35,475 nucleotides of DNA, taken from positions 1-35,475 of the forward strand of contig PXPT01000083.1 in assembly GCA_003021505.1 (NCBI GenBank), given 5' to 3'. A model generated the notes under the pieces. The model had not been told where the DNA came from. It did not search any database and was given only the letters and a program-made list of their open reading frames with translations. Source of the DNA: Cyanobacteria bacterium QS_4_48_99 (GTDB taxonomy: Bacteria > Cyanobacteriota > Cyanobacteriia > Cyanobacteriales > Rubidibacteraceae). Of this stretch, positions 6,046 through 6,888 are shown piece by piece (position 1 is the stretch's first letter; every line of letters begins with the position of its first letter). Made by a program: the position numbers and the translations under genes.

Positions 6046-6660
6046 TTAAATCTGAAACACGGCGACTGCGGCAAATATGAAAAAGAGTAGTCCTCCTATG
6101 GCAGTAATCATCCGCTCGGAGATTTGTTTGGCGATTAAGCTCCCCCCAATCACGGCGATCGCGGTACAAATCGCATGAGCTAAAATTGCCCCAAACGTAA
6201 CGCCGAGGAGATTATTAGAGGCGGCTAAGGCAATAGTGGCTACTTGAGTGCGATCGCCCCACTCAGCAAAAAATGTCATGAAAAAAGCACTCGATATAAT
6301 TGCCAAACCAGCTTTGTTCTCAGGCAGTTTCGATGTCGCCTTATTAACTGCAGCCGTTGCTTCTTTTGCCTCGCTACTATCAGACTGGGGTGACATCTGA
6401 GAAGCATCATATAGCAGCTTGAACCCAAAACCTATAAACAAAGCAACTTCGAGGTATTTCAGATAATTTTTGGGAATGAAAGAAGCAAATTGCCCTAACA
6501 ATACTGACAAAACAGTCATTAAAATTAAACCTGCTATCACTCCCATCATTATGAGTCGTCGAGAATAGCAACTCGATAAAATGACAGCAACGAAAAATGT
6601 TTTATCACCTAGTTCTGAAACGGTAACTAGTAAAAGACTAGCAGTGAAGGCACTTAGCAT
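6046..6660 (-). CDS. mnx: Mnx/UPF0016 (GDT1/TMEM165 family) manganese transporter
   Basis: This 204-residue membrane protein has two copies of the family motif, SELGDKT (Glu16) and AEWGDRT (Glu133), each in a hydrophobic half of about three helices, joined by a polar linker (88-118). The family exports Mn2+ (and in eukaryotes also Ca2+) in exchange for protons. In Synechocystis the single-protein homologue Mnx moves Mn out of the cytoplasm into the thylakoid lumen, supplying photosystem II and preventing Mn poisoning. I chose the ATG at 6660 rather than a TTG at 6669 because GGGAGAG (6672-6678) is then spaced correctly. A manganese riboswitch lies directly upstream, which independently supports the substrate. 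Confidence 0.94.
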   Translation of the reverse strand: MLSAFTASLLLVTVSELGDKTFFVAVILSSCYSRRLIMMGVIAGLILMTVLSVLLGQFASFIPKNYLKYLEVALFIGFGFKLLYDASQMSPQSDSSEAKEATAAVNKATSKLPENKAGLAIISSAFFMTFFAEWGDRTQVATIALAASNNLLGVTFGAILAHAICTAIAVIGGSLIAKQISERMITAIGGLLFFIFAAVAVFQI

Positions 6661-6664
6661 TGGT

Positions 6665-6736
6665 ATCAAGCTCTCCCGAAGTTTCTCGGCATTGTCGGTG
6701 AGCTTGATGCAGCAATAAAGACCCCACCAAGCTCAC
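6665..6736 (-). promoter_or_regulatory. Expression platform of the Mn riboswitch: two mutually exclusive hairpins
   Basis: On the minus strand the arm GTGAGCTTG (6728-6736) is complementary to CAAGCTCAC (6698-6706). The second arm also overlaps ATCAAGCTC (6700-6708), which is complementary to GAGCTTGAT (6665-6673) beside and partly over the GGGAGAG ribosome-binding site. Only one pairing can form at a time. The layout suggests control of translation, with ligand-bound RNA favouring the first pairing and freeing the start. The pairing is visible; its direction is inferred. Confidence 0.65.
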
Positions 6737-6750
6737 TTTAGTTGTGAACT

Positions 6751-6875
6751 CAGTGAAGGTCTCGCTTTCCGCAGCGCACTTGCGCTCCTTGTCACCTGAA
6801 CCAGGCTCATCGCCAGTTTGTTGACTCAGGTGGACTGGCTATTAATTCGCCAGCAGCTACTCCCCTTCTGTAGTA
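6751..6875 (-). ncRNA. yybP-ykoY manganese riboswitch aptamer upstream of mnx
   Basis: On the minus strand the leader carries the hallmark AAGGGGAGTAGC near 6855-6867 and the second conserved loop GCGAGACCTTCACT near 6752-6765. Between them are perfect stems: CTGGC/GCCAG (6849-6853 with 6835-6839), CACCTGA/TCAGGTG (6826-6832 with 6793-6799) and AGCGCA/TGCGCT (6781-6786 with 6773-6778). Docking of the two conserved loops around Mn2+ is the known mechanism of this class. Known targets are Mn exporters including this family. The exact boundaries are approximate. Confidence 0.9.
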
Positions 6876-6888
6876 TTAATGATACTAC
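6870..6888. promoter_or_regulatory. Perfect dyad just upstream of the riboswitch
   Basis: GTAGTAT and ATACTAC flank five bases, a perfect 7-5-7 inverted repeat immediately before the aptamer and near the expected transcription start. It could be an operator for an unidentified regulator or a small 5' hairpin of the transcript. No family is assigned. Confidence 0.4.

Follow-up and report, generated by a model that had tools for sequence, protein, structure and literature searches.

The leader of mnx in Cyanobacteria bacterium QS_4_48_99 carries an aptamer of the yybP-ykoY (Mn2+) type followed by an expression platform. We consider it likely that this leader is a riboswitch of the yybP-ykoY class, in which high cytosolic Mn2+ would turn on mnx translation through a relay of five RNA strands. 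The leader occupies 6661-6868 on the minus strand of the window, by which we mean the whole stretch of DNA analysed (35,475 nt of contig PXPT01000083.1). Manganese builds the photosynthetic water-splitting centre and is toxic in excess. Of the 88 mnx loci that we examined, 60, or about two thirds, have a leader of this kind, which points to direct sensing by RNA at the gene of the Mn exporter.

The mnx gene and its transcription start region

The mnx gene (6046..6660, minus strand) starts with an ATG at 6658-6660 and has a predicted product of 204 aa. This product matches PF01169 in Pfam over two repeats, scoring 151 bits against a cut-off of 27, and its translation carries both E-x-G-D-[KR]-[TS] motifs, as ELGDKT and EWGDRT. 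Homologues keep the same start position. By the PF01169 match and the two motifs, the predicted protein is assigned to the GDT1/UPF0016 (Mnx) divalent cation/proton antiporters, and export of Mn2+ is the function expected from the family.

Upstream of the leader, a probable -10 box, TAGTAT, lies on the minus strand at 6882..6887, 13 nt ahead of the aptamer. Its position agrees with TGTATAAT in homologous leaders, where an upstream TTGACT is often present. Our scan of the mnx promoter in the window found no clear -35 element and no sigma-70 consensus match. Additionally, a perfect palindrome, GTAGTATCATTAATACTAC, at 6870-6888 overlaps the probable -10 box immediately upstream of the aptamer; this palindrome did not turn up in homologous leaders.

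The leader begins with a divergent yybP-ykoY aptamer

A sequence-only reading of this DNA had placed a yybP-ykoY aptamer within 6658-6875, and P1, L1, P2, P3/L3, P4 and GAGACC are indeed all present there, each on the minus strand. P1 is a 5-bp helix, GAAGG/CCUUC, formed by 6864-6868 and 6755-6759. Its 5' side and the start of L1 make up strand A (6862..6868). The 5' half of L1, GGGGAGUAGC, runs to 6856 (6856-6865 in the window) and has its 3' partner, GAGACC, within 6755-6765. Between them lie the P2 hairpin (6835..6854, from folding and homologous leaders), P3 with its loop L3, GUCAACAAACUGG (6794..6831), and the P4 hairpin (6771..6788, from folding), which is a variable region. The whole leader folds much better than its shuffled versions, with a z-score of -5.7 and 0 of 200 shuffles folding as well. 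The L1 motif occurs in 58 of 60 leaders, and P1 covaries from GAAGG/CCUUC in 50 leaders to GAAAG/CUUUC in five leaders from four families.

The X. oryzae structure has the sequence ACA48UACU in L3, with Mn2+ coordinated by N7 of A48 (PMC6754395). The cyanobacterial L3 consensus, ACAUACU, is identical to that of X. oryzae, while the window has GUCAACA..CUGG with ACAAACU, in which the key A6819 is retained. When the ACA at 6819-6821 is aligned by motif with ACA48, A6819 is predicted to correspond to the Mn2+-coordinating adenosine A48. L1 with GAGACC, the L3 adenosine and a P1-P4 four-helix junction with a weak P1, which are the features of the class, are all present, and these features together with the gene content suggest Mn as the ligand.

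At the gathering cut-off of RF00080 (45 bits) there was no match in the window, and none in any of 386 genomes of the cyanobacterial phylum. The covariance-model match anticipated by the sequence-only reading appeared under permissive settings, full-length over the leader and below threshold, at 24.1 bits where 45 are required (E 8e-5, 401 nt searched); it is the sole RF00080 match in the whole 3.6-Mb genome. The best score among 20 relatives, with strict filters off, was 39.4 bits. Because the score falls under the cut-off, we place the element on a divergent branch of this class and do not count it as a formal RF00080 member, so that class membership rests on the L1, L3 and P1 features and on the comparative evidence. 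Standard RNA-family cut-offs miss the cyanobacterial element, and the scores below the cut-off show why routine annotation does so as well.

Five strands can form a chain of mutually exclusive helices

The platform can be described by five strands, which follow one another 5' to 3' in the RNA as A (6868-6862), B (6761-6744), C (6736-6720), D (6709-6698) and E (6677-6665). Strand B (6744..6761, minus strand, as are the others) holds the 3' side of P1, CCUUC at 6755-6759, and the 5' arm of helix B.C. Strand C (6720..6736) is the 3' arm of B.C and the 5' arm of C.D, while strand D (6698..6709) is the 3' arm of C.D and the 5' arm of the sequestor D.E. Strand E (6665..6677) comprises the SD-like GGGAG (6673-6677) and the spacer, its positions 6665-6673 pairing with D. 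The SD of the window is weak, being GGGAG at 12 nt from the ATG.

Helix B.C joins 6744-6761 to 6720-6736 in about 17 bp, is present in the MFE fold and shares CCUUC with P1 (A.B). Helix C.D pairs 6698-6709 with 6725-6736 (12 bp, including one G-U), and D.E pairs 6700-6708 with 6665-6673 in nine perfect base pairs. A.B is therefore incompatible with the base of B.C, as is B.C with C.D, and C.D with D.E. Since the 3' strand of P1 is common to A.B and B.C, Mn binding would be linked to the switch, and by the chain of exclusions the locking of P1 should favour C.D and free the SD-bearing strand E.

Strand D is the shared arm of the sequence-only reading, in which one arm could pair with either 6728-6736 or 6665-6673; both pairings were recovered here, as C.D and D.E. 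That reading had D.E covering the area between the ribosome-binding site and the ATG. The spacer is indeed covered, but so is part of the SD-like GGGAG. Its translational switch of two hairpins on mnx holds as far as C.D and D.E are concerned, both of which have comparative support, but it missed helix B.C. Because neither C nor D overlaps P1, two hairpins alone would not be connected to the aptamer, and B.C supplies that connection.

In the mechanism that we propose, the five strands would form four helices of which neighbours are mutually exclusive. When Mn is absent, B would quit the weak P1 and pair with C in the 17-bp B.C helix, and D, left free, would pair with E and mask the SD region (OFF). 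Binding of Mn at L1/L3 would lock P1 and deprive B.C of its CCUUC base pairs; C would then pair with D immediately after D has been transcribed, leaving E unpaired (ON). The decision would probably be made co-transcriptionally. The ON response to Mn is the direction suggested by the export gene and by SD sequestration, and we infer that control is translational rather than transcriptional, and kinetic.

The platform helices covary across leaders

Over 98 leaders, B.C is paired at 96.9% with two-sided changes in 5 of 17 pairs and D.E at 89.8% with such changes in 8 of 8 pairs, the alignment having been fitted to these two helices, which is a caveat for their counts. C.D, which lies outside the fitted structure, is paired at 88.9% and shows two-sided changes in 5 of 12 pairs. 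For each helix the number of cells with two-sided changes was above that in all 1000 column shuffles, also in 69 representatives of less than 85% identity, although column shuffles control relatedness only partly. One change spans four strands: in seven leaders U-A-U-A becomes C-G-C-G, at the positions corresponding to U6747, A6733, U6701 and A6672 of the window. Covariation in D.E was absent from the first alignment of 23 sequences and appeared only once divergent lineages were added; those lineages retain D.E with different sequences.

Each strand also pairs better with its own partner than with partners swapped between leaders, at -23.4 versus -21.1 kcal/mol for B.C, -25.4 versus -19.1 for C.D and -18.5 versus -14.3 for D.E, and the D.E duplex of the window outdoes 98% of swapped partners. 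The double pairing by itself is modestly unusual, as 66 of 3000 dinucleotide shuffles contained a 7-mer with two complementary sites. With a chance of about 2%, we rejected the two-arm pairing within the window as proof by itself. It is the comparative evidence that places the predicted C.D and D.E pairings beyond chance.

In a Synechocystis salina-like group (L039, L048, L117, L124 and L125), strand D has the sequence GUCAUGC or a close variant of it, so that its possible partner is GCAUGAC, the region of the start codon, and not the SD. D.E can thus be predicted to mask the start AUG itself in one lineage group.

These data bear on two other readings of the platform. The better of them, which we regard as improbable, treats B.C as an intrinsic terminator, so that Mn would lock P1 and cause read-through, with C.D and D.E playing a minor part. 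Our scan did list a terminator-like site in the window, consisting of B.C and then UCUUUAUUGC, and L. lactis is known to work by competition between P1 and a terminator (PMC11087558). However, only 2 of 55 leaders have at least six U among the 8 nt that follow strand C; given this lack of conservation in the U-run, control of transcription may operate in single species but is not what has been conserved. A terminator also leaves unexplained the covariation of C.D and D.E and the way in which they track the SD or the AUG. The other reading is the two-hairpin model as first written, with C.D against D.E alone and the aptamer acting without B.C. Although both of its helices exist and covary, it is very unlikely, because C and D lie outside P1 and hence have no link to Mn binding, and because no helix is more strongly paired than B.C, a competitor of P1 as well as of C.D.

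Locking P1 switches the computed fold

To follow the five-strand relay we performed folding calculations with P1 locked or free, using an energy model that contains neither Mn nor tertiary contacts. Because equilibrium folding with P1 locked left the SD covered, we used a growing-transcript calculation. With P1 free, the transcript of the window formed B.C with 17 pairs at every length past strand C, and D.E with 9.6 pairs once E was made. With P1 locked, B.C fell to 0 pairs and C.D formed 12 pairs once D was transcribed, a state that was still dominant at the start codon. At full length plus 20 nt of coding sequence, the P1-locked RNA had a D.E state at -81.6 and a C.D state at -80.3 kcal/mol, which slightly favours D.E. 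As the locked full-length RNA is near balance, the choice is probably made during transcription.

Across the leaders, locking P1 switched B.C to C.D before the SD had been transcribed in 51 of 58, versus 9 of 116 dinucleotide-shuffled controls; the remaining 7 of the 58 leaders did not show this switch. In the free state, at least five D.E pairs were formed in 57 of 58 leaders. At the AUG, only 20 of 58 lost at least four D.E pairs when P1 was locked, and thus a kinetic decision must be assumed.

The element precedes genes of two Mn-exporter families

To search for the platform we used a covariance model, R1, built from 23 platforms, which includes the start codon and no Mnx coding sequence. 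In the 386 genomes of the phylum, R1 gave 60 matches in 59 genomes. An independent protein search yielded 88 mnx loci, and against these all 60 of the 60 R1 matches directly precede an mnx homologue. Additionally, a sequence pattern made from strands B and C only was run over 84,980 species genomes and found at least 80 loci. Among the matches listed, 80 of 80 are cyanobacterial, 80 of 80 have the L1 and L3 motifs no more than 220 nt upstream, and 77 of 80 precede GDT1-family genes, a few of which are a second GDT1 paralogue. Two of the listed sites precede MntP, in Pseudanabaena biceps O153 and in the Synechococcales isolate AVDCRST_MAG81. The presence of the element on two unrelated Mn-exporter families, GDT1 and MntP, argues for Mn as the ligand. 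A structured leader that is no Mn sensor, responding to another ligand (e.g. another divalent metal) or folding constitutively, would accommodate the ACAAACU of the window where most leaders have ACAUACU, the RF00080 score under the cut-off and the predicted status of Mn as ligand, but it is highly improbable given the retained L1 and Mn-coordinating A and the two exporter families that the element accompanies.

A general link between the platform and MntP was rejected, as RF00080 matches were found in 0 of 10 cyanobacterial mntP loci checked. Of the two mntP-borne riboswitches with a relay platform (L217 and L237; mntP being PF02659), one lies on a contig of P. biceps O153 that is titled a plasmid. 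At the remaining listed site (L248, leader at about 837) the platform stands before a fragment of 56 aa that looks like the beginning of an alcohol dehydrogenase, and this leader is possibly broken or relocated.

Relation to known riboswitches

The cyanobacterial element shares with RF00080, as known from the L. lactis and X. oryzae structures, the four-way junction, L1 (GGGGAGUAGC/GAGACC), L3 (UCAACA..CUGG), an A that never varies where Mn is sensed, a weak switch helix (P1.1) and target genes for Mn exporters. It differs in falling under the Rfam cut-off in all 386 genomes, in a P1 of only 5 bp, and in an aptamer followed by a conserved B.C/C.D/D.E relay and no terminator. Relays of the S-box type use three helices (anti-antiterminator, antiterminator and terminator) in a mutually exclusive chain that starts from P1. 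By comparison, the cyanobacterial relay is one helix longer, which would reverse the sign (ligand = ON), and it ends at the ribosome-binding site.

Locking of P1.1 has been shown experimentally in other members of the class (PMC6754395, PMC11087558), and for the L. lactis member it was demonstrated that the decision is taken at the P1.1 helix (PMC11087558). As in our model, the 3' strand of P1.1 in L. lactis yybP-ykoY is contested co-transcriptionally by the aptamer and a downstream hairpin (PMC11087558). That competitor is a terminator, whereas the cyanobacterial one would be an intermediate helix on which the SD and two more helices depend.

Neither this class of aptamer nor its association with UPF0016 genes is new; a review gives a UPF0016 gene under yybP-ykoY in 328 of 333 screened bacterial strains (PMC7380456). 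The relay platform and its conservation across the phylum appear to be new. A literature search, with most subscription papers outside it, found no description of a riboswitch on cyanobacterial mnx, and priority is uncertain. Work on Synechocystis under Mn stress, published in 2024, states that little is known of Mn-dependent regulation in cyanobacteria and names only ManSR (PMC11649195). The proposed relay mechanism is unusually explicit and can be tested by mutation.

Possible exporter replacement and upstream repeats

In Cyanobacteriia (genomes G000-G059 and the phylum sample), mnx and mntP appear to be almost mutually exclusive. In the genome of the window there is mnx but no match to MntP; G001, a relative from its family, lacks mnx and has two MntP, and G024 has both. 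The pattern suggests that one Mn exporter has taken the place of the other.

Direct repeats of the form ATGA-N7-ATGA (11-bp period) were found in the 250 nt preceding 14 of 26 riboswitch-less mnx genes (L151-L157, L166, L017, L019, L020 and L022-L024) and, among cyanobacterial mntP genes, 7 of 10 (L289, L290, L292-L295 and L297). Only 4 of 58 riboswitch leaders carry them, and the shuffle expectation is below 0.4 per set. The repeats suggest an alternative, DNA-binding Mn regulator, perhaps of the response-regulator type.
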